Source of the DNA: Clostridiales bacterium 1_7_47FAA | GTDB lineage: Bacteria; Bacillota; Clostridia; Lachnospirales; Lachnospiraceae | Reading direction: 5' to 3' | Assembly: GCA_000155435.1 (NCBI GenBank) | Contig: DS990260.1 | Location: 2,396,547-2,460,546, forward strand | Length of the DNA: 64,000 bases | In this document: piece by piece, positions 7,214 to 22,042 of the stretch | Layout of the letters: each line of letters begins with the position of its first letter | Numbering within the stretch: position 1 is the stretch's first letter | Translations under genes and position numbers: made by a program | Notes under the pieces: model-generated | The model's database searches: none | Seen by the model: only the letters and a program-made list of their open reading frames with translations | Told to the model about the DNA's origin: nothing

Positions 7214-8631
7214 GAATGTCCTCCGCCGCAGCTTTTCTTCTCCGCCTTCACCTGGGATTCCATATCATAGACACCCACCGTGTTCTTATTGGAGATGACC
7301 GTAATATTCGTCACATTGTACAGGCGGTGATAGACCACATGTTCTCCGTGCTCAAAGCCCGTACAGGACATGCTCAGGAGATATTCCCCTCCCTGAAGCG
7401 TCATTTTCTGGGAAAATTCCACCGTGTATTCGTCCCCGCGCTTCACCGGCTTTATATCCGCGCCTTCAAACATGGTATTGGTCCCTGTCAGGTCGCTGCC
7501 CTTCTTGTCCTTGATGGTGTAGGTGAAAATGGGGGCCTGGATATCCGTATTAAAACGGATGCATTCCCTGATGGTGAAGGTTTCCCCTTTTAACAGCAGA
7601 TTGGTAAGATTGCCCCGTTCGTCAAACAGGCCCAGGTCATAAATCTCAGCCCGGCCGTCCCCGTATTCCGTCCTGTCATAATTAATGGTCAGCTGGTCCT
7701 TCATAAGGCCTTTGCCATGTGCGGCACTTCCGTCCTGCCGGGCGCCCGTCCCTTTCCGTCCGGAACCATCCGGCTTCCCTCCGGCCTCTGTGCCTTCCTG
7801 CCCCATCTCCATGCCGCCGGAAAAATCAGACATTTCCACTTGGTTTTTCTTCTCAAGTTCCGCTTTCAGCGAATCCAGCTGGCCAGCCAGTATTTTCTTA
7901 TATAAATCCACCATATGTCCGGGAGCGCCTTCCGACACAAATTCCCCTTTATTAAGAAGCACGACCTTGTCGCAGTACTTGATGATACTGCCCATATCGT
8001 GGGTCACCATCAGGATGGTGGTTCCCTTCTTACGTATCTCCTCCATCCTGCGGTAACACTTGGACTGGAAGAAAACATCGCCAACGGACAATGCCTCATC
8101 CACAATCAGGATTTCCGGGTCCACATTGATGGCTAACGCAAAAGCCAGCCGTACAAACATACCGCTGGAATAAGTCTTGACCGGCTGGTACACAAAATCC
8201 CCGATTTCCGCAAAGTCCAGGATATCCTGAAGCTTGGCGTCCATCTCCTTTTTCGTGTATCCCATCATGGTGCCGTTCATATATATATTTTCAATTCCTG
8301 TATAATCCATATTAAAACCAGCGCCCAGCTCCAGAAGGGCCGATATCTTACCGTCCACCCTGGCCTCTCCCGTGGTGGGCGTCAATACCCCGGTAATGAT
8401 TTTCAATATAGTGGACTTGCCGGAACCGTTGGTTCCGATGATTCCCACTGTCTCCCCCTTCTTCACATGGAAGGAAAGCCGGTTCAGTGCATAAAAATCC
8501 CTGTGGTAATTCTTATGGGAAATGCTCATGGATTCTTTCAGACGGTCAATGGGTTTCTCATATAATCTGTATACCTTGGTCACGTCCGCGACCTTAATGG
8601 CGTACTCACTGTCCTTTTCTCTATCTGGCAT
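7210..8631 (-). CDS. wzt: Polysaccharide ABC exporter ATPase with C-terminal carbohydrate-binding domain (Wzt/TagH type)
   Basis: This is the ATP-hydrolysing subunit of an ABC-2 glycan exporter. The roughly 473-residue protein has Walker A GTNGSGKST, an ABC signature TYSSGMFVRLAFA, Walker B EILIVDEALSVGD and the switch histidine in MVTHD. After a low-complexity Gly/Glu/Lys linker around residues 255-300, the last 160 residues form a Wzt-C-like beta domain (YGDGRAEIYDLGLFDERG onward, ending LYNVTNITV). In E. coli O9a this domain binds the capped chain end. Start 8631 is preceded by GGAG at 6 nt; an upstream ATG at 8643 lacks a clear ribosome binding site. No permease gene is adjacent. The only Wzm-like gene in the window is about 30 kb away (38510-39325). 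Confidence 0.9.
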   Translation of the reverse strand: MPDREKDSEYAIKVADVTKVYRLYEKPIDRLKESMSISHKNYHRDFYALNRLSFHVKKGETVGIIGTNGSGKSTILKIITGVLTPTTGEARVDGKISALLELGAGFNMDYTGIENIYMNGTMMGYTKKEMDAKLQDILDFAEIGDFVYQPVKTYSSGMFVRLAFALAINVDPEILIVDEALSVGDVFFQSKCYRRMEEIRKKGTTILMVTHDMGSIIKYCDKVVLLNKGEFVSEGAPGHMVDLYKKILAGQLDSLKAELEKKNQVEMSDFSGGMEMGQEGTEAGGKPDGSGRKGTGARQDGSAAHGKGLMKDQLTINYDRTEYGDGRAEIYDLGLFDERGNLTNLLLKGETFTIRECIRFNTDIQAPIFTYTIKDKKGSDLTGTNTMFEGADIKPVKRGDEYTVEFSQKMTLQGGEYLLSMSCTGFEHGEHVVYHRLYNVTNITVISNKNTVGVYDMESQVKAEKKSCGGGHS

Positions 8632-8676
8632 AACTGTCTCCATCCTAATACTGCATACTTTTCCACTTTAGGCATA

Positions 8677-9829: not shown

Positions 9830-9864
9830 TGCTCCCTCTTCTTTTTTATAATTATATATAATTG

Positions 9865-9898
9865 ACCGGCCGGCAGCAATGCCGGCCGGTTGTCTTTA
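9865..9898 (+). terminator. Terminator between trxA and the nucleoside hydrolase gene
   Basis: A perfect 11-bp stem (ACCGGCCGGCA at 9865-9875 and its complement at 9880-9890) with a GCAA loop is followed by TGTCTTT. It can serve trxA and may also act on the convergent minus-strand operon. An 18-nt direct repeat (AACCCATTAACCAT core at 9902 and 9920) follows. Confidence 0.8.
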
Positions 9899-9942: not shown

Positions 9943-10920
9943 TCAAGCGCGCACCAGCGCCTGTTCCAGCAGACTGCACATCCTGTCCCTGTCAGCCCGG
10001 TACGCGATATAAACCGGATTTTCTGCTGACGCTGACGCCCGGTCATCCGTAAACAGTCCGCCTCTGGCATAACCATGTCCCACATCAACATCACACTTCT
10101 GGCGCACCACTTCCGTCACCACTTCCGGATGACTCACGTACATGACAGCCAGCACATCGTGGAGTGCACTCTTTTTTACGGCCCTGGCCCCCAACCGGTT
10201 AGCTGCATCAATCCGGTTAATCAATAAATCAGCGGCAAATGCACCGGCCAGGCTCCCGGTCTCCCTTATCCTCCCAGCTTCCTCATAACCAAACCAGGAA
10301 CTGTGGGTGGCATCCAATGTTATCAAAGTTATTTTGATTCCTGATTCCAATACTATCTTGGCTGCCTCCGGATCATTATAGAAGTTGATTTCCGCACAGG
10401 GGGTCATGTTGGCCACATGCACGCCGCCTCCCATACAGATAATCTCCTGTATCTTATCGCAGATTCCCGGTTCAATTTTAAGGGCAAGCGCTATGTCCGT
10501 CAAAGGGCCGACCGGAACCAATGTAACCGGTTCCCTGCTATTCATCAATGTGTCAATCAGCCAGATGACTGCCGGAGTCCTTTCTTCCCTTCCTTCCGGT
10601 TCAGGCAGGTCAAACTCCTTTTGATGCACAGCCACAGCCTTCCCATCAATGACTCCTTCAAAAGACTGTATATCCGTGTTCAGGCGGCTGCCCGGGAGAA
10701 GGTCTGCCACCAGAGGGCCTGCACTGCCCTTATAAATCTTAAAACTACCGCTGATTAATTCCCTGATTTTCAATGTATTCTTAAGCGTATATGCAAGGGG
10801 CTGATTCCCATAAGAAACCATCACCCCCAGAACCTCAAACTCCTGTGACATGCAGGCATACATAAGCGCCACCGCGTCGTCACTGCCCGTGTCCACACCT
10901 AAAATAATCCGCTTCTTCAT
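9943..10920 (-). CDS. Inosine-uridine preferring nucleoside hydrolase family protein
   Basis: This 325-residue protein should hydrolyse the N-glycosidic bond of a (deoxy)nucleoside or a similar N- or C-ribosyl compound. It has the family calcium-binding N-terminus GVDTGSDDAVALMYA; the usual form is DTDxGxDD, so the Asp cluster is slightly altered. It also has ICMGGGVHVANMTPCAEINFYNDPEAA in the middle, where Asn and Asp bind the ribose, and the C-terminal ALHDVLAVMY with the usual HD calcium ligand region. It is the last gene of the minus-strand catabolic operon that begins with the binding protein at 19834. That context makes release of a sugar for the adjacent ribokinase likely. The exact substrate is unknown. 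Confidence 0.85.
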   Translation of the reverse strand: MKKRIILGVDTGSDDAVALMYACMSQEFEVLGVMVSYGNQPLAYTLKNTLKIRELISGSFKIYKGSAGPLVADLLPGSRLNTDIQSFEGVIDGKAVAVHQKEFDLPEPEGREERTPAVIWLIDTLMNSREPVTLVPVGPLTDIALALKIEPGICDKIQEIICMGGGVHVANMTPCAEINFYNDPEAAKIVLESGIKITLITLDATHSSWFGYEEAGRIRETGSLAGAFAADLLINRIDAANRLGARAVKKSALHDVLAVMYVSHPEVVTEVVRQKCDVDVGHGYARGGLFTDDRASASAENPVYIAYRADRDRMCSLLEQALVRA

Positions 10921-10934
10921 TCATATCACCATTT

Positions 10935-12119
10935 TCACTCAATCCTTACGATATCAGATGTTTCCAGCGCATACTCTGATAATTCCTGACCGATCCCAGG
11001 CAGTTCAGGTACATCAAAATAACCGTCAACTGGCTGGTAATTGTATTTACAGAGTTTGATATTGTCGTCAATCAGCGCCACCGCATGGTGCTCATGGATA
11101 ACAAAGTTCGGTATGGCTGCTTCCAGCTGAAGCGCTGCCGCCGTAGCCAGGGGGCCTCCACAGATATGAAGCTGCACTCCGATATCGTATACATGGGCCA
11201 TGTCACATATCTTCTTAGTCTCCGTAAACCCGCCTGAATTCCCCATATCCGGCTGTAACACCTGTAGGGATGCATCTTCTATAAACGGCCTGAACCCCCA
11301 GCGTGTGTAAATGCGTTCACCGGCAGCCAATGGCATGGCTGTCTGGTCCGATATCTTTTTCATTAATTTGGGATTCAGCGGCATGGTGGGTTCTTCCACG
11401 AAACTGCATTCCAGGTCCCTCAATCTTTCAATGAGCTGGACAGCCGACTTTGTGTCTGTCAGTGCATGGAGTTCTATGATGATTTCCAGCCCCCTTCCGC
11501 CCCTTTCCCGGATTGCCTTCACACGCTGGTAAGCCAGGTCCAGTTCCGATGAGGACAGGAAACCTGTCTTGGTGGACTTCAGCCAATTACCTTCCAGGTC
11601 ATAGCCAATGGGGTCAACCTTTACAGCCTGATACCCCTCTTCCATGGCCTTGGATGCTGCCTGGGCATAGTCCTCAGGCATAATCATTGCCCTGCTGACC
11701 GGACTCCAGTCAAACTGGATCTGGCTTGCATAGCATTTAAGTTTCCGGTTGGTTTTCCCTCCCAGCAGTTTATGACAGGGCACTCCTAATGCTTTACCCT
11801 TGATATCCCACAGTGCAATATCGATGGCACTGATGCCGGCCCAGATGACGCTTCCCCCTCCCATTCCCCAGAATGTAAGGCGCATCAGACTTTCCCAAAT
11901 AGCTTCCGTATCAAACGGGTCCTTTCCAATAATCAGCCGTGAGAAATCCTGACAGATACCAAACGCCGCCTGGTTCGCATCACCATATGTAAGTCCGGCT
12001 TCCCCATAGCCGCTTATTCCTTCATCTGTATTAATCCTGACACAGATAGGTGTGAAAACAGATGGATTCGTCCCTCTTGCCTTCACGACCTTAATTACAT
12101 CCACACTTGTAATCTTCAT
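10935..12119 (-). CDS. Enolase-superfamily (mandelate racemase/muconate lactonizing) enzyme
   Basis: This 394-residue enzyme probably abstracts a proton alpha to a carboxylate, as an acid-sugar dehydratase, racemase or cycloisomerase. The N-terminal capping domain (MKITSVDVIKVV...) is followed by the TIM barrel. Visible features are a KVD motif (AVKVDPIGYD), metal-ligand stretches EIIIELHA, SFVEEPTMP and AAGERIYTRWGF, then LQPDMGNSGGFTE and QLHICGG, where a His may complete the acid-base pair. The start at 12119 follows GGAG at 7 nt; a TTG extension to 12140 is less likely. It lies between the ribokinase and nucleoside hydrolase genes in one operon. The KVD-type motif fits sugar-acid dehydratases, but the substrate cannot be named from sequence. 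Confidence 0.82.
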   Translation of the reverse strand: MKITSVDVIKVVKARGTNPSVFTPICVRINTDEGISGYGEAGLTYGDANQAAFGICQDFSRLIIGKDPFDTEAIWESLMRLTFWGMGGGSVIWAGISAIDIALWDIKGKALGVPCHKLLGGKTNRKLKCYASQIQFDWSPVSRAMIMPEDYAQAASKAMEEGYQAVKVDPIGYDLEGNWLKSTKTGFLSSSELDLAYQRVKAIRERGGRGLEIIIELHALTDTKSAVQLIERLRDLECSFVEEPTMPLNPKLMKKISDQTAMPLAAGERIYTRWGFRPFIEDASLQVLQPDMGNSGGFTETKKICDMAHVYDIGVQLHICGGPLATAAALQLEAAIPNFVIHEHHAVALIDDNIKLCKYNYQPVDGYFDVPELPGIGQELSEYALETSDIVRIE

Positions 12120-12144
12120 TTCAAATCTCCAATCACTCAATGCC

Positions 12145-13056
12145 TTACCGGCAGATTTCGTTTATATATGGAACAGACTCTGCTGCACCAAGCTTTGTGG
12201 TACTGATGGCAGCCGCCTTATTAGCTGTCTTCAGAGCCGCTGCAAGCGTTTCCCCCTTGGACAGCATTGCGGCCAGATACCCCAGGAATGCATCGCCTGC
12301 TCCGGTAGTATCCACAGCTTTTATCTCATCCGTTCCCAAAAAGGTAATCTCCCCATGGATTCTGGCACAGCATCCCCTGGCGCCAAGGGAAATGATTGGT
12401 ATTTTAAACCCCATGTGTTCCAATACCACCAGGGCTTCCACAACCGATTCCTGATCCGTTGCCCCAATTCCTGTCAGCTGTTCTGTCTCCACCTCATTAG
12501 GCTTTACGATATCTATGTATCCGGCAATCCCTTTATCCTTTAATATGTCTAAATCCCCGGAAGGGTCAACTATTACTGTGCAACCCTTTTCCCTGGCAGT
12601 TTTTATGGCTGATGCAATGAACGCCTTGCCGTATTCCAGCGTTATCATGAATATATCCCCATTGCCCGCAATCTCTTCCAGTTTTTGCAGCTGTTCTGCC
12701 TCATTTCCCAGACTGGCTCCCGGAAAGCAGATAATCATATTCTTTTCTTCACCGTCAGCCCAAACCTGTGCAATGCCTGTTTCCTGCCCTTCCATGCAAA
12801 GGAGGCGGCTTATGTCCACACCATTGTCTGACAGTTTCTTTCTGATAATCCCTCCGTTCGCGTCCATGCCCACACTGCCAAGAAAGAAACAATGACCGCC
12901 TGCCCGGGCCGCCGCAACCGCCTGGTTGGCGCCCTTCCCTCCCAACTTTTTACAAAAATATGGTGTGTATTTCGTTTCCCCCACAAGAGGAAAATGTTCC
13001 ACGGACATGATTTCGTCTATATTCGCGCTTCCTATATTTATAACCTTTGTTGCCAT
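12145..13056 (-). CDS. rbsK: Ribokinase-like PfkB carbohydrate kinase
   Basis: This 303-residue sugar kinase probably phosphorylates ribose or a similar pentose released in this pathway. It has NIGSANIDEIMSV at the N-terminus, the substrate loop KKLGGKGANQAVAAARAGG (PfkB signature 1) and DTTGAGDAFLGYLAA (signature 2, with the catalytic Asp). Length and motifs are those of RbsK rather than fructokinase. It sits in the catabolic operon between btpA-like and enolase-superfamily genes. A second, divergent PfkB kinase domain is fused to the regulator at 20144. True ribose specificity is an inference. Confidence 0.85.
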   Translation of the reverse strand: MATKVINIGSANIDEIMSVEHFPLVGETKYTPYFCKKLGGKGANQAVAAARAGGHCFFLGSVGMDANGGIIRKKLSDNGVDISRLLCMEGQETGIAQVWADGEEKNMIICFPGASLGNEAEQLQKLEEIAGNGDIFMITLEYGKAFIASAIKTAREKGCTVIVDPSGDLDILKDKGIAGYIDIVKPNEVETEQLTGIGATDQESVVEALVVLEHMGFKIPIISLGARGCCARIHGEITFLGTDEIKAVDTTGAGDAFLGYLAAMLSKGETLAAALKTANKAAAISTTKLGAAESVPYINEICR

Positions 13057-13084
13057 ATATCCCCATCCCCATTCTAGGTCATGT

Positions 13085-13912
13085 TTACAATGTATCCCTC
13101 AGTTTTACCACCCGGTCCATAAAAGCTTTTGTCCTGTAATAATCCACAGGGTTCTGCCACTTTCCCTGCGCCTTAAACGTACTGCCCACAATCGCCCCAT
13201 CGGCAGCGGACAGCAATTCCGTAATATTCTCCTCTGCCAGACCGCTTCCAAGAAGGACCGGAATCCCGATTGCGGCTTTACATTCCAGGACTTTATCTAC
13301 CGTAGGAGGCATTCCTGTGTCAAAGCCGGTAACAATGACCGCGTCCCCGCCCTGGGCTTCTATATCCATTGCCTGTTCCTTTACACTCCTGTCATGGATG
13401 ATATAGTGGCTCCCATGCTTTACGTTCACATCACACAAAGCCAGGATATGCCCCGCTTTCAGCCGGTCCCTCATTCTGGACACCCGCCCCCCTGCCCCAT
13501 TCACAAACCCTGACTGGGAAATGAACGCGTTGCACCATTCAAACACCCGGATCCATCTGGCCCCTGCCGCTGCTGCGCTCGCCATGGCACATTCGGCACC
13601 ATTCATATGGCACTCAGCCCCCACCGGTATGGAAACATGTTTCCCTACTTCGTAAATCCCTACCGCAAGGGCTGCCGCTGTCTCATAACCAATATCTTCA
13701 GGCCGGTTATAGGGTATATCCCACATATTTTCCACCTGAACCCCGTCAACTCCCGCATCCTGTAGTTTTTTTGCTTCATCAACCGCTATTTCCAATATTT
13801 TCGTCATATCCATGGATGCAGGGTCATACATGGGTGAACCTGGAAGCGGTCTCAGATGTACCATGCCGATTATGGGTTTTTTCTCGCGGAATATACTTTG
13901 TAACTGTCTCAT
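13085..13912 (-). CDS. BtpA/SgcQ family TIM-barrel protein
   Basis: This 275-residue member of the BtpA family has the conserved start PIIGMVHLRPLPGSPMY, followed by DGVQVENMWDIPY, PVGAECHMNGAECAMA and a C-terminal GSTFKAQGKWQNPVD. BtpA was first linked to photosystem I assembly in cyanobacteria, but in Firmicutes and enterobacteria (SgcQ) relatives sit in sugar or nucleoside operons. Their reaction is not well established. It begins 1 nt after the livF stop, with GGAGG inside the last livF codons, so it is translationally coupled to the transporter genes. The family call is firm; the role as a catabolic enzyme is inferred from its operon. Confidence 0.82.
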   Translation of the reverse strand: MRQLQSIFREKKPIIGMVHLRPLPGSPMYDPASMDMTKILEIAVDEAKKLQDAGVDGVQVENMWDIPYNRPEDIGYETAAALAVGIYEVGKHVSIPVGAECHMNGAECAMASAAAAGARWIRVFEWCNAFISQSGFVNGAGGRVSRMRDRLKAGHILALCDVNVKHGSHYIIHDRSVKEQAMDIEAQGGDAVIVTGFDTGMPPTVDKVLECKAAIGIPVLLGSGLAEENITELLSAADGAIVGSTFKAQGKWQNPVDYYRTKAFMDRVVKLRDTL

Positions 13913-13913
13913 G

Positions 13914-14624
13914 TCAGCCTCCTAAATATGATTTTTTCACCTCATCGCTCTGCTGCAATTCCCTGCTATAACCGGACGCAGTAATATGTCCCAATTCCAG
14001 GATATACGTACGCCTGGATGTATTCAGCGCCATGAAGGCATTCTGTTCCACCAGGATTACCGGAATTTTCCTCTGGCTGTTCACTGACTGGATTACCTCA
14101 AAAACCTCATCCACAATAATAGGCGCAAGTCCCAGGGAAGGCTCATCCAACATCAGTAATCTGGGATTGGACATCAGTCCCCTGGCTATGGCCAGCATCT
14201 GCTGTTCCCCGCCTGACAAAGTCCCGCCTGCCTGGGTCAGCCGTTCCCTCAAACGTGGAAATATGTCCAGCACCCCATCCATTTCATCCTTCAGCTGCCT
14301 GGATGACAGCTTTCTGGAATAAGCCCCCATCTCTATGTTCTCCTGTACCGTCAGCTCATAAAAAATCCTCCTGCCTTCCGGAACATATACAATTCCCTCC
14401 TCCACTATCTTGTGGGTATGCATGCCGGTAATATCCTTACCATTATATATGATCTGCCCTGATTTCGGCCTGTTGTCTCCCATTATCGTTGTCATCAGGG
14501 AGGATTTTCCTGCTCCGTTGGCTCCGATGATGGACACGATTTCATCATCCCCCACTGTCAGGCTCACATCATTTAAGGCCTGTACCTCACCATAAAACAC
14601 ATTCAAATTACTGATTTCCAGCAT
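13914..14624 (-). CDS. livF: Branched-chain-type ABC transporter ATPase (LivF)
   Basis: This is one of two ATPases of the HAAT-type importer encoded here. The 236-residue protein carries Walker A GANGAGKSS, signature LSGGEQQMLAIARGL, Walker B LLMLDEPSLGLAP and the switch region ILVEQNAF. The last two features mark the LivF subgroup. It is packed 2 nt after livG and 1 nt before the BtpA-like gene. The HAAT family carries branched-chain amino acids but also urea, short amides and aromatic acids. Given the catabolic neighbours, amino acids need not be the substrate. Confidence 0.93.
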   Translation of the reverse strand: MLEISNLNVFYGEVQALNDVSLTVGDDEIVSIIGANGAGKSSLMTTIMGDNRPKSGQIIYNGKDITGMHTHKIVEEGIVYVPEGRRIFYELTVQENIEMGAYSRKLSSRQLKDEMDGVLDIFPRLRERLTQAGGTLSGGEQQMLAIARGLMSNPRLLMLDEPSLGLAPIIVDEVFEVIQSVNSQRKIPVILVEQNAFMALNTSRRTYILELGHITASGYSRELQQSDEVKKSYLGG

Positions 14625-14626
14625 GG

Positions 14627-15406
14627 TTACACCTCTTTTACCTTATACCTGTCACCCAGATACGCCTTTATGACCTCAGGATTGTCCCTGATTTCCTTCG
14701 GGGTTCCCTCTGCAATCTTCTTACCAAAATTAAGGACCGTGATTCTGCTGCTGATTGCCATGATTACATCCATGTTGTGTTCAATCATAAATACGGAAAT
14801 GCCCTTTTCATGAATTTTCCCTATAATGTCAGTAAGGCCCTTGCGCTCAGATGGGTTTAATCCGGCAGCCGGTTCATCCAAAAGAATCAGGTCAGGGTCT
14901 GTAGCCAGGGCACGCCCGATTTCCAATACCTTCCTGTTCCCATAAGGAAGACTGTGTACCTTTTCATTCGCAAGATGCCCAAGGCCTATGAAGTCCAATG
15001 TTTCCATAGCCTTCTCATCCCGTTCTTTCTGTTCCGCCCGGTTCAGACGGGGGACAAACATGGTTTGAAGCATCCCATAATTATTTGTCACCTTAGCCGC
15101 TATACTCAGATTTTCCATTACTGTCAAGGTATCAAAAAGCCTGATATTCTGGTAGGTCCGGCCAATGCCTTTTCCCGCCCGCTGGTAAACCTTATACTTA
15201 TCAATCACTTCATCCCTAAAAAATATATTGCCTTCATTCTGGTGGATTTCCCCGCAAATTAAATTAGTAATGGTTGTTTTCCCGGCGCCGTTGGGACCAA
15301 TCAGGGAATGAATCGAGGCCTGCTCAACATCCATGGAAAAATCACTGACCGCCTTTAATCCGCCAAATGACTTGGACAAATGTTCGATTTTCAGAATTGC
15401 ACCCAT
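14627..15406 (-). CDS. livG: Branched-chain-type ABC transporter ATPase (LivG)
   Basis: This is the second ATPase of the importer, 259 residues. Walker A is GPNGAGKTT, and the LivG-typical insert GKGIGRTYQNIRLFDTLTV follows. The signature segment is degenerate (SLPYGNRKVLEIGRALA, as usual for LivG). Walker B is LILLDEPAAGLNPSE and the switch is MIEHNMDV. It lies between the LarA-like gene and livF with 2-nt gaps, so the subunit genes are expressed as a unit. An unrelated enzyme gene (LarA-like) is inserted between the permease and ATPase genes, which ties that enzyme to the transported compound. Confidence 0.93.
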   Translation of the reverse strand: MGAILKIEHLSKSFGGLKAVSDFSMDVEQASIHSLIGPNGAGKTTITNLICGEIHQNEGNIFFRDEVIDKYKVYQRAGKGIGRTYQNIRLFDTLTVMENLSIAAKVTNNYGMLQTMFVPRLNRAEQKERDEKAMETLDFIGLGHLANEKVHSLPYGNRKVLEIGRALATDPDLILLDEPAAGLNPSERKGLTDIIGKIHEKGISVFMIEHNMDVIMAISSRITVLNFGKKIAEGTPKEIRDNPEVIKAYLGDRYKVKEV

Positions 15407-15408
15407 TT

Positions 15409-16698
15409 TTACCTCCTCCTAAAGCCCTTAAATCCGCCATCCACAAATTCCATGCTTCCCACGTATTTAAGCATTTGGGGCTGTTCCACATGGCCAGCTT
15501 CCTCCAATAAAGCTTCTGATATATATATCTGCCTTAAATCAGCTGTGTTTTTTATCATCACAATCCTTGCGTTCCTGGTCGCATCCCGGCGGATACATGT
15601 ATAGAGACACATCCTCAAAGCCAGTTCGTCGGTTTCCATCACAACCGGGAGACGGATTCCCTGGGTATCGTGACACGTGACCGCGTTTACATAGACCGGG
15701 GTGAAGTCTATCTTTTTATGAAGCCGTTCCGTTATCACATCCGCATTCCCCATACCCGCTGCATTTCCACCGGATTTTTCCGTCAGGTCCCATACACATA
15801 TCTTTTCCGCATGGGGCCAATCCTCTCCCAACACGCAGGAACGCCCTGTTATATTTGTATCCATTCCCGCTCCGCTGATTTCCTTCCCCATTTCCTGCAC
15901 CAAAAGTACATCCAGATGGTCAAACGGGATTCTTGGGAGGAGGGATTTAGAATATCTTAAAAGCCCTGGTTCCTTTTCCAGTATCTCCTCTCCGGGTATA
16001 GCCTCTATACGTGCAACCCGGTGTCCGGCATTCTCTATTACACCAATTCCCATCAGCACAGGTGCATTTTCAAGGATGACCTTTCCGAACTCATGCAGAT
16101 TGCGGCTCATATTAGGGAACCCCAGTTTATGGCAGATAGACGCCCCATACTGTTTACCCAGACCGATGACCAGCATTTTTAATATACCGCTTTCATAAGG
16201 CCCCCTGAATTCCGTATGGGCCTTAATCCTGGCAATCGGAATAATATGATCTGCATGGAATGCCAGACTATCCATACATACCGGAAATCCTTGATTGCTG
16301 GTGCCTATCTCCTCGGTCTCCATGGAAGATGCAATCCGCACCCCCAGGCGCTCTTCCGTTATGCCCAAATGATATAATACGTCTTTCTGTCCCTGGGCAG
16401 TTGCCCCGCCATGACTTCCCATGGCCGGGACAATGAACGGAGCAGCTCCTTTTTCCTTAAGGATACCGATCAGTGTCTCCGCAATATCCGCAAGCCCATT
16501 GATTTCCCTGCTTCCCATGGCAATCGCCACCGTGTCATCCTTTTTGACTTTCTGCATCGCAGCGCAATGCTGCAGCCCTGCCGTCAACGCCGCCTTGATA
16601 TCCGTCAGCTGCGGTTGCTCCTGCCTCATTTCCATAAGGGAAAAATCCGGCAGTTCCACTTCCTTCAGCAGCCGCTCAAACAACTCCCTGTCCTTCAT
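15409..16698 (-). CDS. LarA-like (DUF2088) lactate-racemase family protein
   Basis: This 429-residue protein belongs to the nickel-pincer racemase family typified by lactate racemase LarA. Visible features are KKDDTVAIAMGSREINGL, FIVPAMGSHGGATAQGQ (nucleotide/cofactor region), IARIKAHTEFRGPYESG with a conserved His, and VLLVQEMGKEISGAGMD. Characterised homologues racemise or epimerise short alpha-hydroxy acids using the LarBCE-made cofactor. No larB, larC or larE is seen in this window, so the cofactor would have to come from elsewhere or this member may not use it. It sits inside the transporter operon between livM and livG. Together with the enolase-superfamily gene this hints at a hydroxy acid or sugar acid as intermediate. 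Confidence 0.8.
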   Translation of the reverse strand: MKDRELFERLLKEVELPDFSLMEMRQEQPQLTDIKAALTAGLQHCAAMQKVKKDDTVAIAMGSREINGLADIAETLIGILKEKGAAPFIVPAMGSHGGATAQGQKDVLYHLGITEERLGVRIASSMETEEIGTSNQGFPVCMDSLAFHADHIIPIARIKAHTEFRGPYESGILKMLVIGLGKQYGASICHKLGFPNMSRNLHEFGKVILENAPVLMGIGVIENAGHRVARIEAIPGEEILEKEPGLLRYSKSLLPRIPFDHLDVLLVQEMGKEISGAGMDTNITGRSCVLGEDWPHAEKICVWDLTEKSGGNAAGMGNADVITERLHKKIDFTPVYVNAVTCHDTQGIRLPVVMETDELALRMCLYTCIRRDATRNARIVMIKNTADLRQIYISEALLEEAGHVEQPQMLKYVGSMEFVDGGFKGFRRR

Positions 16699-16701
16699 AG
16701 C

Positions 16702-17667
16702 CTACGCCCTTCCCCTGTGTTTTTTTATTTTTGACCTTACAAACTCAGGGACAGATACGAAACCATAAGGAATGAACATGACCATGATCAGCATCAGCGT
16801 ACTGAATGCCAGCCAATAATATTCCCCCAGGAACTTTAACATTTCCGGCAGGATGGTGACAACAATCCCGCCCATGACACAGCCGGGAATCGTACCCAGG
16901 CCGCCCAGCATCAGCATCATGATGAATTTAACCGTGAAATCAAAATTAAAGTCAGATGGATGGATGAACTGGAACATATGGGCGTTCATGGCGCCTGCAA
17001 AGGTCATGAAACAGGATCCAAGTATATATGCCTTAATCTTAATGGAGGCCTTATCAATCCCACATCCCTCCACCGCCACATCATTATCTTTTATGGCAAT
17101 GAGCATCCTGCCCCATTTTGAATCAATGACACGTTTGGAAATGACCATTGCAATTATCATGAAAAATAATGCCAGATAATAAAAATTCCTGGGATTCCCG
17201 AAATTGATTCCGATTAATTGATAGGACGGTATTCCTGCAACACCGTTTGTACCTTCGGTGAGCCATGTCATATTGGTCAGAAGGAGCCTGGTCGCTTCCA
17301 GGAACCCCAAAGTGGCCAGAACAAAATACACCCCTTTAAGCCTCAGGCTTGGATATCCAATCATAACACCAATCACCAGGCCGAACAGGACCGCGGCAAT
17401 GGTTCCAAGCCATGGGGAAATCCCCAGCTTTACACTTAAAAGTCCGGTCATGTAAGAACCAAGCCCAAAAATCGCTGCCGGCGAAAAGTCAAACTGTCCT
17501 GACAGTCCCATCGTAAAATTCAATCCCAGAACCGCTATGATATAAACAATCGTTTGGTTCATCAGTATCTGGTTATAGTTATTACGGCTTAAAAACGGCA
17601 ATCCAATTGCCATCAGCAGGCAAAGAGCCAGAAGAGCAGACCTTTTGCCATTCTTTTTCCTATCCAT
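16702..17667 (-). CDS. livM: Branched-chain-type ABC transporter permease (LivM)
   Basis: This is an integral membrane subunit of the HAAT importer with 321 residues and about eight to ten hydrophobic segments. The LivM signature region GLSGQFDFSPAAIFGLGSYMTGLL near residues 54-77 is plain, as is LGGLGTIPGCVMGGIVV near the C-terminus. The N-terminus is positively charged (MDRKKNGKRS), as expected for a cytoplasmic start. GGAAGGAG precedes the ATG at 17667. It pairs with livH 16 nt upstream. Confidence 0.93.
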   Translation of the reverse strand: MDRKKNGKRSALLALCLLMAIGLPFLSRNNYNQILMNQTIVYIIAVLGLNFTMGLSGQFDFSPAAIFGLGSYMTGLLSVKLGISPWLGTIAAVLFGLVIGVMIGYPSLRLKGVYFVLATLGFLEATRLLLTNMTWLTEGTNGVAGIPSYQLIGINFGNPRNFYYLALFFMIIAMVISKRVIDSKWGRMLIAIKDNDVAVEGCGIDKASIKIKAYILGSCFMTFAGAMNAHMFQFIHPSDFNFDFTVKFIMMLMLGGLGTIPGCVMGGIVVTILPEMLKFLGEYYWLAFSTLMLIMVMFIPYGFVSVPEFVRSKIKKHRGRA

Positions 17668-17683
17668 TTACTTATCTCCTTCC

Positions 17684-18562
17684 TTACGACCTGGTAATCT
17701 TAACCTTGCCTAATATTCCATTGGGACGAATCAGCAGGAAGATGATAAATACAATGAACGACACGGCATCCTTATAGATAGCAGGGCCAAAATATGTATA
17801 CATATTCTCAAGGATTCCCAGAAAAAGTCCTCCTATGATTGCTCCGGGAATGGTTCCAAATCCGCCCACCACACATGCAATGAAACCTTTTGTGGCAATA
17901 TTTCCCGCCATGGATAAATCCACATTGTAAATAGGAACAATCAGCATGCCGATAACAGCACATACGCTGGCGCTCATGGCTATGGTGATGATATTGCACT
18001 TCTGGACATTGATTCCCATGTAGCCTGCCGCCTTCTTATCCTGGTTCACACACCGCATGGCCTTCCCCAGCTTTGTCTTGAAGTAAAACAGGTTCTGCAG
18101 ATAGAGAAAAATAAGCGCCATGGCAATGATACAGATATTTGCATTGGAAATCGAGAGGGAACCGAATTTAAGATATCCTGTCAGGAATCCAGGAATGCTG
18201 AAAGGAGCTGCGCCCCACGTAATCCTTACTAACTCCGTTAGTATCTTTGACAATAAGACAGTTCCGAATATGGCAAACACATTGGACGGAAGGTTTCTTA
18301 AGGGGTTGAAAATCCCCAGGGCCACAACCGCTCCAAATACCGCCATGAAAATCAATGTAAAAATAACTGCAAAAATGTGGTTAAAGCCCATCATTTTCAC
18401 AAACAGGCCGCCAAATACATACGCTCCCAATATGATGAATTTTTCATGGGAAAAGTTCATCAGGCCTGATGAATTGTATATGATTGTTATCTCAAATGCC
18501 ACAAGAAAATAAATGAAGCCTGAGGCGCAACCATTAATAACCAATTGTAATATTGACTGCAT
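17684..18562 (-). CDS. livH: Branched-chain-type ABC transporter permease (LivH)
   Basis: This second membrane subunit of the importer has 292 residues. It starts MQSILQLVINGCASGFIYFLVA, then shows YNSSGLMNFSHEKFIILGAY, the LivH counterpart of the usual G-x-xNFA motif. GFIACVVGGFGTIPGAIIGGLFLG is the conserved permease-ATPase contact loop. The start at 18562 is supported by AGAGG 6 nt upstream, whereas a longer frame to 18604 lacks one. It follows the binding-protein gene by 63 nt. Confidence 0.92.
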   Translation of the reverse strand: MQSILQLVINGCASGFIYFLVAFEITIIYNSSGLMNFSHEKFIILGAYVFGGLFVKMMGFNHIFAVIFTLIFMAVFGAVVALGIFNPLRNLPSNVFAIFGTVLLSKILTELVRITWGAAPFSIPGFLTGYLKFGSLSISNANICIIAMALIFLYLQNLFYFKTKLGKAMRCVNQDKKAAGYMGINVQKCNIITIAMSASVCAVIGMLIVPIYNVDLSMAGNIATKGFIACVVGGFGTIPGAIIGGLFLGILENMYTYFGPAIYKDAVSFIVFIIFLLIRPNGILGKVKITRS

Positions 18563-18625
18563 ATCCAACCTCTTCCCTGCGTTGTGCACCAGGCGTCCGT
18601 CCATCAGACGCCCAGTGCGTATGGC

Positions 18626-19834
18626 CTACTGCTCATATCCGTCTTCAAAAATCCTCTCAATCACATATGCTTTTCCATCTTTTACCTGGCAGATATTCAT
18701 CTCATGGATCATCTCGCCTTTATCAGATGCCGTCATGGTACTCATGACGCCTGCGAGTCCCTTTGTCTCAGCCAACGCCGTCCTCAGCTGATCCGGTTCC
18801 GTGCTGCCAGCACGTTCAATGGCATCCTTCAGCAGATATACCGCATCATAATAAGCAGCGCTGTATAAATCCGGGTCTGAGTTGTATTTTTCGTGATATC
18901 TCTTTACAAAGCCAGATACCCTCTCGTCATCCGAATATGGCGTGAACTCACTTACCGAGCAGATTCCTTCCGATACGGATGGGTCAATCAAATCAAGAAC
19001 CGTACTCATGGCAAAACCGGCGCTGCCCATGATCGGCGTGTCAATCCCCACCTCTTTAATCTGTTTTGCAATAATAGCAATTTCCGCATCATGCCCCCAG
19101 ATGATCAGCGCATCGATCCCACTGTTCTTTAACTTCGTCAGCTGTCCGGTCATATCCTTATCTCCCGTATTATAACCTTCGCTGATAAAGCCCACTCCCT
19201 GTTCCTTCAATGTGGCTTCAACCACATCCTTGGCCGAGGTAGCCCAGTTATCATTGTCGAAAATCATGCCGATGTTCTTGCACTGAAGCTTGTCCGTTAA
19301 ATATTTGCATGCAATTTTACATGCCAGGGAGTCGGATGGCCTTACCCTGAAGCCATATTCATTGTTAAGGTCCAGAAGTGTCGGCGAGGAACCGCCATAC
19401 AGGAAAGGCATCTTCTGGTTTTTTAACTGCTCCTGGACAGCCACTACATTACTGCTCATATGCGGGCCTATGAGTGCAACAACATTTTCCGATAATAATT
19501 TATTGACTGAGTTCATGGTCCCGCTGGTTGTGGCCCCGTCATCTTCAATCACCGCCTCCAATGTCTTTCCTGCAACGCCGCCATTGGCATTGATTTCTTC
19601 CACGGCCATCGTCACCCCTTCTTTGGTCCTCTGACCATTAAGAGGTGACGGACCTGTCAGGGCCGTGGTAATACCAATCCTGATTGTGTCCCCCTTGACG
19701 GCTTCTGCCGTGGTTTCCTTTGCCGGTACTTCACTGCCCTTTCCCGCGTCAGCTTTCGGCGCAGGATTCCCGCTGCAGGCAGTTAATGCAAAAGTAAGTG
19801 CCAATGCCATTGATGTCCCCAAAATTTTTTTCAT
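18626..19834 (-). CDS. livK: ABC transporter substrate-binding lipoprotein (LivJ/LivK-like)
   Basis: This extracellular solute-binding lipoprotein of 402 residues feeds the LivHMGF complex. The signal peptide ends in the lipobox LTAC (Cys20). After a charged linker the two-lobed type I binding fold starts at IRIGITTALTGPSPLNGQRTK, followed by VVALIGPHMSSNVVAVQ and a hinge region around FDNDNWATSAKD. GAAAGGAAAGG precedes the ATG. It is the first gene of the minus-strand operon ending at 9943 and has a consensus promoter and a LacI-type palindrome upstream. The family also binds amides and aromatic acids, so the ligand is open. Confidence 0.92.
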   Translation of the reverse strand: MKKILGTSMALALTFALTACSGNPAPKADAGKGSEVPAKETTAEAVKGDTIRIGITTALTGPSPLNGQRTKEGVTMAVEEINANGGVAGKTLEAVIEDDGATTSGTMNSVNKLLSENVVALIGPHMSSNVVAVQEQLKNQKMPFLYGGSSPTLLDLNNEYGFRVRPSDSLACKIACKYLTDKLQCKNIGMIFDNDNWATSAKDVVEATLKEQGVGFISEGYNTGDKDMTGQLTKLKNSGIDALIIWGHDAEIAIIAKQIKEVGIDTPIMGSAGFAMSTVLDLIDPSVSEGICSVSEFTPYSDDERVSGFVKRYHEKYNSDPDLYSAAYYDAVYLLKDAIERAGSTEPDQLRTALAETKGLAGVMSTMTASDKGEMIHEMNICQVKDGKAYVIERIFEDGYEQ

Positions 19835-19952: not shown

Positions 19953-19971
19953 AATACTTTCCGAAAGTATT
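19953..19971 (-). promoter_or_regulatory. LacI-type operator palindrome downstream of the liv operon promoter
   Basis: The 19-nt sequence AATACTTTCCGAAAGTATT is a perfect 9+1+9 palindrome. It lies 11 nt downstream of the minus-strand -10 element, so it covers the start of transcription. That is a repressor roadblock position. The facing LacI-kinase fusion is the obvious candidate to bind it. Confidence 0.72.
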
Positions 19972-19982
19972 TTCCTAACTAT

Positions 19983-20143: not shown

Positions 20144-22042
20144 ATGAATATTAAAGATATTGCCTCCATGGCCGGAGTCTCTATTTCAACCGTGTCTAAG
20201 ATCATCAATGGGAAGGATGATTCCATTAATGACGCAACAAAAGAAAAGGTACTGAAAATCGTAAAAGAATATAACTATACGCCATATGCCAGATTCACAA
20301 AATCCACCCAGCGCAAATCTTTTACCGTGGCTGCTCTTCTTAAGTACAATACCGCCAACTCAATATTCCTGGATGGATTAACCGAAGCACTGGAGGAACG
20401 GGGATATCATCTTTTATATTTAAAGAATGGCCGGACGCCGGAAGAAGAAACAAAGAATATCCATTTTATATGTTCCCAGAATGTGGACGCGGTCATATGG
20501 GAACCTTTGGATGAAGAAAGTCTTGTGAATTATGGGAATTTTGAACAGAATGGCCTGAAGGTCTTTTTAATTAACTGCGCATATGAAAAAGCCTTCTGCA
20601 TTGACTATTCCAAATATGCTTCCCATGCAGTAAAAGAACTCTTTCAGGCCGAGCACCGTACCATTGCCCTGGTCCATTCCCAGCCATCGGACATGCTGGA
20701 CGGCATCATAAAAGGTTATAAAATGGGTCTGTATGACCAATCCCTGACCTTCAACGCAGATCTGATATACAACTATCATCACAACGAATTAATTAATTAT
20801 CTGAATCTGCATAATATTACTGCACTGATTACCCCTGACATACGGACCGCCCTGATGATTTATAAGACCTTGGATGCATGCCAGCGCCATATACCGGATT
20901 ATATATCTTTGATTGCCATTAACAGCAGCGCCGACCAGGAGCCGGAGTTTCCGGAATTTTCAATCATACCTGTCCCCTACAGGGATTTTGGCCGTTTTAT
21001 TGCCAACAAGGCTGTTGACTACTGTGAACTCAACTCCCTGGATGAGAAAAATTTCATACCGGACATCCCGCCGATCAACAATGTGACCATCGCCCAACCA
21101 GCCCTGGGCAGGGAAAAGAATATCATTGTGCTGGGTAGCATGAACATTGATACCACACTGAATGTAAAACATTTCCCCAAACCCAATGAAGCTTCCCATA
21201 CCAATAATTATTCCATCTCAGTGGGCGGCAAAGGCACAAACTACGCGGTCGGTATTGCAAGGTTAAAACACAATGCCATACTCCTTGGACGTCTTGGGAA
21301 TGATTCGGATGCCGACAGGATTTACTCCACCTTAAACAGCAACAGGGTCAATACCGCCTATATACGCAGGGATCAGAATGAAATTACAGGAAAGGCATAT
21401 ATATATGTGCAGGAAGACGGCGAGAGTACAATCTCCACTTTAGACGGTGCCAACAACACGACGGACGACCTGTTTGTCAACAATAATGCCAGTATTTTTA
21501 AAGGAGCCCAGTACTGTATCATATCCACAGAAATACCCATGAGTGCTGTCAACCAGGCCCTGAAGATAGCCAAGATGAATAACTGTATAACGATAGTAAA
21601 ACCTGTAGCTTTAACCTCGCTGGACAAACTGCAGACAAACCTGATTGATATCTTCATCCCTAACAGGACAGAGGCCCTAAGGTTAAGCGGGAACCTGACA
21701 GGTCCTGAAGAACAGGGAAAACATTTCCTCCAATATGGCTTTCACTCAGTCATCATCACACTGGGGTCCCATGGCTGTTTTTTGATGAATGACGCTGAAT
21801 CCAAGTATTATGATGCAGCAGAGTTTATTCCAATTGACACGACCGGCGGTTCCGACGCCTTTATAAGTACTCTGGTATCCTATCTTCAGTATGGCTATTC
21901 CCTGAATAAGGCCATCCAGATTGCCAATTACGCCGCCGGATTCTGTATCTCCAGACAAGGGGTCATCACAGCGTTGGCAGACAAGGCCTCCCTTGAATCT
22001 TATATCAGCAAAGTTAACAATGACTTACTTAAAATAGATTAA
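20144..22042 (+). CDS. LacI-family transcriptional regulator fused to a PfkB/ribokinase domain
   Basis: This 632-residue fusion combines DNA binding, a sugar-sensing domain and a kinase fold. Residues 1-55 are a LacI helix-turn-helix (MNIKDIASMAGVSISTVSKI and EYNYTPYARFTKST). Residues about 60-315 are the periplasmic-binding-like effector domain. Residues about 325-625 are ribokinase-like: NIIVLGSMNIDTTLNVKHFP, SVGGKGTNYAVGIARL (signature 1) and DTTGGSDAFISTL (signature 2). The usual GAGD is GGSD here, but the catalytic Asp is kept. The effector domain is not shortened. The gene diverges from the liv-ribokinase operon and probably represses it. Whether the kinase is active or a second sensor is unknown. 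A few similar fusions are known in Clostridia, but a clear role is not established to my knowledge. Confidence 0.9.
   Translation: MNIKDIASMAGVSISTVSKIINGKDDSINDATKEKVLKIVKEYNYTPYARFTKSTQRKSFTVAALLKYNTANSIFLDGLTEALEERGYHLLYLKNGRTPEEETKNIHFICSQNVDAVIWEPLDEESLVNYGNFEQNGLKVFLINCAYEKAFCIDYSKYASHAVKELFQAEHRTIALVHSQPSDMLDGIIKGYKMGLYDQSLTFNADLIYNYHHNELINYLNLHNITALITPDIRTALMIYKTLDACQRHIPDYISLIAINSSADQEPEFPEFSIIPVPYRDFGRFIANKAVDYCELNSLDEKNFIPDIPPINNVTIAQPALGREKNIIVLGSMNIDTTLNVKHFPKPNEASHTNNYSISVGGKGTNYAVGIARLKHNAILLGRLGNDSDADRIYSTLNSNRVNTAYIRRDQNEITGKAYIYVQEDGESTISTLDGANNTTDDLFVNNNASIFKGAQYCIISTEIPMSAVNQALKIAKMNNCITIVKPVALTSLDKLQTNLIDIFIPNRTEALRLSGNLTGPEEQGKHFLQYGFHSVIITLGSHGCFLMNDAESKYYDAAEFIPIDTTGGSDAFISTLVSYLQYGYSLNKAIQIANYAAGFCISRQGVITALADKASLESYISKVNNDLLKID

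Follow-up and report, generated by a model that had tools for sequence, protein, structure and literature searches.

The window analysed here is the whole stretch of 64,000 nucleotides of Clostridiales bacterium 1_7_47FAA (contig DS990260.1, positions 2,396,547 to 2,460,546; host genome size 6.5 Mb). It carries at 9943–19834 an operon of ten minus-strand genes—for a HAAT importer, a LarA homolog, a BtpA family protein, a PfkB kinase, an enolase-superfamily enzyme and a nucleoside hydrolase—and, divergent from it, the gene of a LacI-PfkB fusion regulator. The operon combines two modules that are found separately in other places, and it is tentatively read, at somewhat less than even confidence, as serving the breakdown of a riboside with an aglycone that either is an alpha-hydroxy or sugar acid or gives rise to one. 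The enzyme families are known; their combination was found in two genomes, and no paper describing it was found by the searches made in a collection of open-access papers.

Four kinds of described system come closest. Loci with a LacI-PfkB fusion, a PfkB kinase, a nucleoside hydrolase and a Bmp importer (L237, L239 and L243) share the regulator architecture, the kinase and the hydrolase with the window. The regulator is divergent from the kinase in L237, L238 and L239, of which L238 is without a Bmp match. In the window, a HAAT importer replaces the Bmp type, and BtpA, a group 22 LarA (LarA22) and an enolase-family enzyme are added. The dgo operon of E. coli, for D-galactonate, has adjacent genes for kinase, aldolase and enolase-superfamily dehydratase, comparable to the neighbouring kinase, btpA and enolase-family genes of the window. 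Unlike the window, the annotated dgo stretch is without LarA, nucleoside hydrolase, BtpA and ABC importer, and DgoK belongs to another kinase family than the PfkB kinase of the window. In the BtpA/SgcQ systems, the TIGR00259 member—present in the window and in L086—has a sugar kinase or a sugar phosphotransferase system (PTS) as its neighbour, the latter in the sgc PTS operon with sgcQ of E. coli and in L077; in the ribose-type loci L085–L087, LacI-, RbsD-, RbsK- and RbsA-like genes surround BtpA. The fourth is group 22 of the LarA superfamily, whose model the window protein matches above the cut-off while keeping the two catalytic His and the Ni-ligand His of LarA. The features of the locus, in the direction of transcription of the operon and followed by those that flank it, are:

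18626–19834, minus strand: livK-like substrate-binding lipoprotein of the HAAT importer, 402 residues; PF13458 (Peripla_BP_6) 218.7 bits, LivK subfamily 144.5 bits, below the cut-off of 477.
17684–18604, minus strand: livH-like permease, 306 residues; PF02653 (BPD_transp_2); 83% identical over 107 residues to the copy in genome G309 (contig end).
16702–17667, minus strand: livM-like permease, 321 residues; PF02653 (BPD_transp_2); 71% to the G309 copy.
15409–16698, minus strand: LarA homolog, nickel-pincer-nucleotide isomerase group 22, 429 residues; Lar_N; NF052515 499.9 bits, cut-off 400.
14627–15406, minus strand: livG-like ATPase, 259 residues; PF00005 (ABC_tran) and PF12399 (BCA_ABC_TP_C); 71% to the G309 copy.
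13914–14624, minus strand: livF-like ATPase, 236 residues; PF00005 (ABC_tran); 75% to the G309 copy.
13085–13912, minus strand: BtpA/SgcQ family protein, a predicted phosphosugar TIM-barrel enzyme, 275 residues; TIGR00259 204.8 bits, cut-off 153.4.
12145–13056, minus strand: PfkB kinase, ribokinase-like, 303 residues; PF00294; TIGR02152 238.5 bits, below the cut-off of 299.65.
10935–12140, minus strand: enolase-superfamily acid-dehydratase-like enzyme, 401 residues from a TTG start; PF13378 and PF02746 (MR_MLE N and C).
9943–10920, minus strand: nucleoside hydrolase of the IUNH family, 325 residues; PF01156 (IU_nuc_hydro) 231.8 bits, cut-off 34.2.
20144–22042, plus strand: LacI-PfkB fusion regulator, 632 residues, divergent from the operon; by Pfam, LacI DNA-binding domain 2–47, periplasmic-binding-like domain 163–293 (just under the cut-off) and PfkB domain 325–611.
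19954–19978, no strand: operator-like palindrome ATACTTTCCGAAAGTAT at 19954–19970 with an overlapping motif match at 19959–19978 (16 of 20 positions), between the LacI-PfkB gene and livK.
9863–9892, no strand (scored on plus): terminator-like hairpin with a 13-pair stem, between the operon end and a convergent thioredoxin-like gene (named by eye).

The gene order is thus livK-livH-livM-LarA homolog-livG-livF-btpA-PfkB kinase-enolase superfamily-nucleoside hydrolase. This gene set, which the sequence-only reading had described with the same family names, is borne out: Pfam backs the names of all ten genes and NCBIfam those of nine, livM lying outside the NCBIfam scan. The intergenic gaps measure, 5′ to 3′, 21, 16, 3, 2, 2, 1, 28, 4 and 14 nucleotides; the earlier claim that most genes are spaced by 1–5 nucleotides stands for five of the nine gaps and fails for those of 21, 16, 28 and 14. 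The enolase-family gene has an alternative start 21 nucleotides later (ATG at 12119), where its homologs begin and which would turn the gap of 4 nucleotides into one of 25. The kinase, the dehydratase-like enzyme, the hydrolase and the four scanned Liv proteins score below the cut-offs of models with named functions, hence names for specific substrates would not be warranted for them. Computed directly are the gene set and its presence in a second genus, the retained active-site residues, the separate occurrence of the modules, the fold class and kinase neighbourhood of BtpA, and the complete larB-larC-larE cluster.

The gene set is conserved in one other genome of the family, G309, in which livH-M-G-F, btpA, the kinase, the enolase-family gene and the hydrolase gene are contiguous in the same order, with a group 22 LarA gene after them; livH is truncated by the end of the contig. 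Beside the identities of the Liv proteins listed above, BtpA is 77%, the kinase 50%, the enolase-family enzyme 74% and the hydrolase 65% identical between the two operons. The LarA gene of G309 sits at the opposite end of the operon, and its product is 40% identical to the window LarA and 73.5% to the LarA of the HAAT locus of G013; the nearest relative of the window copy in the compared set is that of G015 (55.5%). A tree that holds the window and G309 LarA together was rejected in a test made after the tree had been viewed (p-AU 3.42e-5), and with this post hoc result orthology of LarA between the two operons is rejected. That the same operon took up a group 22 LarA twice, each time from a different branch, is an argument for a need for the reaction.

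In the loci read outside these two operons, BtpA stands without most of these partners. At E ≤ 1e-25 it is present in 36 of 397 family genomes, that of the window included. A close copy is found in one of the 396 others (G309), the next best match being 45% identical, and in two of 16 genus mates—71% in G012 and 75% over 188 residues in G005. The stretches read around the G012 and G005 copies hold no hydrolase, LarA or enolase-family gene; G012 BtpA lies on a 7.9-kb contig with a 37% identical ribokinase-like gene and an amino-acid-type ABC system (by eye). At class level, two of 390 other genomes have BtpA at E ≤ 1e-60, as a count without gene contexts. Among the best 80 of at least 552 confirmed BtpA loci, which are not independent of one another (clusters of Rhizobium, Pantoea, Klebsiella and Paenibacillus), LarA, livK and livH matches within 3.5 kb of BtpA occur in none, and nucleoside hydrolase, enolase-family and livM matches occur in one each at 24–26% identity. 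A pathway general to BtpA loci is hereby ruled out, the partners just named being absent or single around these 80 relatives. The expectation that the enzyme genes would be conserved together elsewhere holds once, in G309, and fails for the 80 best BtpA loci, none of which has the full set.

The riboside module comprises the regulator, the kinase and the hydrolase. The LacI-PfkB architecture gives 23 matches in 22 of 298 family genomes at E ≤ 1e-80, the window included (21 of 297 others). Among the 21 loci examined—out of 22 matches beyond the window, the partial match G202:C2:108663 being left out and L238 standing outside the counts—a nucleoside hydrolase lies within 9 kb in 11 (two of them weak, 25–28%), a separate PfkB gene in 11 and a Bmp-type binding protein in eight; L276, L282, L283, L285 and L290 end at contig ends. 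Pfam identifies the Bmp importer in L237 and L239, and tblastn does so in the remaining counted loci; those of L240, L241 and L242, seen by eye, are left out of the count. A search with the hydrolase gave, at E ≤ 1e-45, 13 matches spread over 11 of 397 genomes, window and G309 included. Eight of the nine places beyond these two were read (G415 left out): five show a PfkB kinase (L237, L238, L239, L242 and L243), four of these also a LacI-PfkB fusion (all but L242), and the relatives of hydrolase and regulator converge in part on the same loci, namely L237, L239 and L243. Because other genomes also combine hydrolase, PfkB kinase and LacI-PfkB fusion, in several cases next to a Bmp-type nucleoside importer, the pairing of nucleoside hydrolase with ribokinase points to a riboside, as had been proposed from the sequence.

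The nucleoside hydrolase belongs to the IUNH family by its Pfam score and by its active-site residues, with the exception of the first Asp. The residues D10, D14, D15, N171, E177, N179, H254 and D255, which we take to have the active-site roles of their IUNH counterparts, are kept. The specificity models for RihA, RihB, RihC and UriH (NCBIfam equivalogs) leave the protein below their cut-offs, the best score being 178.9 against 450. The kinase likewise stays below the ribokinase equivalog TIGR02152 and is ribokinase-like; it scores 70.1 bits as a KDG kinase. An operator-like motif of 20 nucleotides, taken by eye from L237–L239 after the window palindrome had been viewed and with a poor half in L237, has its best site of the whole 64 kb between the regulator gene and livK, and its score of 16 of 20 is reached by two of 400 first-order random copies of the 309-nucleotide intergenic region. 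Neither the fusion regulator nor the palindrome had appeared in the sequence-only reading. By eye, the PfkB domain of the regulator has GGSD where the operon kinase has GAGD, from which it may serve sensing rather than phosphorylation.

The acid module comprises LarA22 and the enolase-family enzyme. NF052515, "nickel pincer cofactor-dependent isomerase, group 22", is matched by the window protein with 499.9 bits and by the G309 copy with 506.1 bits. In an hhalign alignment (probability 90.9, E 1.1e-6), R64, H96, H161 and H190 of the window protein align with R75, H108, H174 and H200 of LarA, numbered as in PMC7583248, and are invariant in 20 rows. K174 is invariant as well, but follows the second His by 13 residues, compared with 10 for K184 of LarA. 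The numbered LarA groups are those of Desguin et al. 2020 (PMC7583248), and their agreement with the numbering of NF052515 is assumed. No activity for group 22 was found: the term "group 22" is absent from three LarA papers searched, PMC7583248 and PMC12611868 among them, and "LarAH22" from one of these. The genes for the cofactor are adjacent on contig C106 of the host genome as larB-larC-larE, with LarB at 292 bits (cut-off 175), LarC1 at 195.6 (90), LarC2 at 150.3 (50) and LarE at 270.7 (150).

The enolase-family enzyme carries E223, H225, E249, E275 and H325 in alignment with the D/H/E/E/H set of E. coli DgoD, which presumably provides the metal ligands and the His pair. With 245.4 bits against the 311 of NF010624, the model for DgoD (D-galactonate dehydratase), it is DgoD-like and is not classed as DgoD. 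Its best PDB sequence matches—2o56, 4e6m, 2gl5 and 2ox4—are titled putative dehydratase or putative mandelate racemase; the PDB single-sequence search returned nothing usable for group 22 LarA or for BtpA.

Relatives of the two acid-module genes were compared in two sets of 21 loci. The enolase-family set consists of 20 places of the family draw (22 of 24 matches, the window's own and G272:C40 left out) and one plasmid record picked by hand out of 15; several of its loci are short or one-sided (L191, L192 and L196). The LarA22 set consists of 20 of 29 matches above the cut-off plus G309; L024 is a short contig, and the enolase-family match of L037 has only 24% identity. Names of reading frames outside Pfam (AroE, AroQ, Tct, GntR, UxaA except in L207, and similar) were given by eye. 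Eight of the 21 enolase-family loci have a LarA, of the classical kind or of group 22, at a distance of up to about 10 kb. HAAT genes accompany the enolase-family gene in three of 21 loci and LarA22 in three of 21, with G309 counted in both. The Sporomusa termitida row has an enolase-family gene, three tripartite-tricarboxylate-transporter genes (TctCBA), LarA group 22 and UxaA; in two Salmonella records, genes for an MFS transporter and GntR adjoin the enolase-family relative, and other relatives stand beside GntP-, TRAP- or tripartite-type transporter genes (by eye). Because the relatives co-occur and adjoin acid-type transporters, as judged by annotation or by eye, the pairing of LarA with the enolase family points to hydroxy-acid or sugar-acid chemistry, and this earlier suggestion is upheld.

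Some further loci touch the same families. The host genome itself holds, at G000 C105:703080-707686 (L034), a second enolase-family gene (52–53%) about 3.5 kb from a second group 22 LarA; by eye, an APC-type permease gene and two genes of the GntR type lie between the two or next to them. In L189 and L190, which also hold a classical LarA, the neighbours of the enolase-family gene are, by eye, AroE- and AroQ-like genes together with a transporter of the tripartite tricarboxylate type; these loci are possibly related to quinate or shikimate.

For BtpA, which the first reading had left as a so far unnamed enzyme, the neighbourhood, the fold model and the phosphate segment narrow the role to phosphosugar chemistry in the company of a PfkB kinase. 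The window protein is a member of the TIGR00259 family and stays below the equivalog for photosystem I biogenesis BtpA (NF045918, 173.9 against 400). A PfkB gene lies within 3.5 kb of BtpA in 64 of the 80 best loci, with 13.3 matches per 100 kb versus 0.86 at 5–11 kb. The RbsD, DUF4432 and RbsA queries were drawn from these 80 loci and those for TenA, phosphotriesterase, nucleoside phosphorylase (PNP) and the TrpA-like protein from further BtpA loci, so that the neighbourhood is fairly tested only by PfkB and the proteins of the window itself. An RbsD-like (D-ribose-pyranase-like) gene is within 3.5 kb in seven of the 80, six of them with PfkB also; the RbsD-like protein of L086 reaches 128 bits, above the D-ribose pyranase cut-off of 93, and an RbsA-like gene is also in line in L085, L086 and L087. 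Other neighbours are a mannose/sorbose-type PTS in L077 and the sgc PTS of E. coli. With a kinase or a PTS as neighbour, the sugar would be phosphorylated before BtpA acts.

The predicted structure of BtpA has a pLDDT (predicted local distance difference test) of 93.1 from 49 sequences. The top Foldseek rows are HisF, HisA-type and NanE; the model also matches ribulose-phosphate epimerase and the KDPGal and KDPG aldolases (Z 19.5 and 19.1). The 50 top rows span the narrow range of Z 18.5–20.1, with MfnB (4rc1) first by 0.2, and therefore the exact reaction is not readable from the fold. The profile also hits the segment of tryptophan synthase alpha that holds its phosphate site (5ey5 at E 1.4e-7, 3tha at E 1.8e-6). 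By fold model and phosphate-binding segment, BtpA is predicted to be a phosphate-binding TIM barrel of the ribulose-phosphate-binding type. All 49 rows agree at, among others, H19, E61, N62, R122, D161, K165 and H169 and at the GSG within the presumed phosphate loop. Fold and neighbours together suggest that BtpA probably works on phosphorylated sugars.

Two other kinds of locus with BtpA were seen. A TenA-family gene is within 3.5 kb in 19 of the 80 best loci and in none at 5–11 kb (Proteobacteria, e.g., L081–L083; the query is from L083); phosphotriesterase and ribokinase genes are also near BtpA in L083, and the TenA-type loci may represent another pathway around BtpA. L076, L078 and L079 combine BtpA with a Bmp-type importer, a PfkB kinase and a nucleoside phosphorylase-family protein (by Pfam for L076), and, by eye, with proteins resembling iron alcohol dehydrogenase and TrpA—a third nucleoside-like type of operon with BtpA.

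The importer is of the HAAT type by family, and its scanned proteins remain below the Liv equivalog and subfamily models (LivF 253.7 against 441, LivG 254.2 against 362, LivH 114.7 against 379, and LivK as listed; livM outside the scan). Scores of this kind would neither prove nor exclude leucine-type ligands. Among four other LivK proteins aligned, the closest is 42% identical and comes from L041, an operon of HAAT genes, FAD oxidoreductases and LarA22 with no hydrolase match.

For the riboside reading, we infer the catalytic steps, their order and the single molecule that would feed both modules. The HAAT importer LivKHMGF would import the compound, recognising its acid end, and the nucleoside hydrolase would cleave it to a pentose and an aglycone. 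Phosphorylation of the pentose would fall to the ribokinase-like PfkB enzyme, and BtpA would convert the sugar phosphate as an isomerase, an epimerase or a retro-aldol enzyme. On the acid side, the group 22 nickel-pincer isomerase would invert C2 of the hydroxy acid, which the DgoD-like enzyme would then dehydrate to a 2-keto acid. The LacI-PfkB fusion would repress both directions until the sugar or the riboside is sensed. One substrate that carries both the riboside and the acid part is the simplest reading, in view of the joined modules and the one importer, and is given a little under an even chance. The more specific proposal is of an undescribed pathway in which the HAAT system takes up an alpha-hydroxy or sugar acid in ribosylated form, the nickel-pincer C2 isomerase and the enolase-superfamily dehydratase use up its acid half, and the kinase and then BtpA its pentose half, BtpA being a new phosphopentose isomerase, epimerase or aldolase of many bacteria; this is possible, if on the doubtful side. 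As pure speculation, a carboxylated or hydroxy-acid-bearing nucleoside from modified RNA may be one kind of candidate substrate.

Several observations weigh against this reading. The full set is seen in two genomes only, and no library model names the gene set; by NCBIfam, kinase, enolase-family enzyme, hydrolase and LivK are all below the specific cut-offs. The modules are themselves loose: 13 of the 21 enolase-family loci have no LarA, which weighs against a fixed module, 16 of the 21 LarA22 loci have neither a HAAT nor an enolase-family gene in view, and 10 of the 21 LacI-PfkB loci have no nucleoside hydrolase within 9 kb, some being cut by contig ends. The hydrolase has G at position 8—the first Asp of DxDxxxDD; codon at 10897–10899—in the window only, with Asp in G309 and ten other rows. 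Apart from LarA, the kinase is the least conserved gene between the window and G309 operons, which is odd if it is central. No PfkB gene lies within 3.5 kb in 16 of the 80 best BtpA loci, including the 58–70% identical relatives L084, L089, L090 and L102; in L084 and L102, whose BtpA is 69–70% identical, a DUF4432 gene adjoins BtpA instead. Free ribose 5-phosphate would not need BtpA, so that either the pentose is not ribose or BtpA has another role. Finally, the two modules could serve two substrates.

The main rival is a sugar-acid pathway of the dgo kind, which is unlikely without being far-fetched. Here, LarA22 would epimerise an aldonate, the enolase-family enzyme would form the 2-keto-3-deoxy acid, PfkB would phosphorylate it and BtpA would be the aldolase, while the hydrolase would only take off a ribosyl cap or be a passenger. 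The genes btpA, rbk and eno stand side by side as do dgoK, dgoA and dgoD; the acid and His residues of DgoD have aligned counterparts in the enolase-family enzyme; the best structural matches of BtpA include the KDPGal and KDPG aldolases; and a locus with HAAT, enolase-family and LarA genes and no hydrolase match exists (L205). However, the kinase is far nearer to ribokinase than to KDG kinase, and the PfkB neighbour of BtpA in 64 of 80 best loci contrasts with a single enolase-family match (L147, 25% identity). The aldolase matches are approached within about one Z unit by many unrelated phosphate barrels, and the invariant K165 follows the fifth barrel strand of the model, in contrast to the strand 6 lysine that KDPG aldolase uses.

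Two independent pathways under one regulator—a hydroxy-acid pathway of HAAT importer, LarA22 and enolase-family enzyme, and a riboside pathway of nucleoside hydrolase, ribokinase-like kinase and BtpA, for compounds that co-occur in the habitat—would account for each module being found elsewhere without the other. This arrangement is rather improbable: the operon has a single importer, the genes of both modules are interleaved and tightly spaced, and the join is kept in G309 with a LarA of another branch. An ordinary nucleoside salvage operon with a changed importer, in which LarA and the enolase-family enzyme act on unrelated side products, fits the regulator, kinase and hydrolase of nucleoside-type loci but is very unlikely given that both operons hold LarA22 and the enolase-family gene, with LarA drawn from two branches.

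Over the window as a whole, the numbers of consensus promoters and terminators, including the total of terminator-like hairpins, do not exceed those of shuffled sequences, and neither an Rfam family at gathering score nor a tRNA is present. A frame of 1331 residues at 3218–7213 resembles, by eye, a methyltransferase fused to glycosyltransferase parts and adjoins a polysaccharide-type ABC ATPase at 7210–8643.

If the riboside reading is true, a shared and testable substrate would become available for nickel-pincer-nucleotide isomerase group 22, for the enolase branch around 2o56 and 2gl5, whose PDB titles are "putative", and for BtpA/SgcQ. The LacI-PfkB fusions would serve as a handle for finding nucleoside-type operons and their inducers. 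The BtpA part holds independently of the rest: for a family named after photosystem I work, yet annotated as "putative nucleoside triphosphatase" in E. coli, the kinase neighbourhood and the phosphosugar-type barrel pose a concrete enzyme question.

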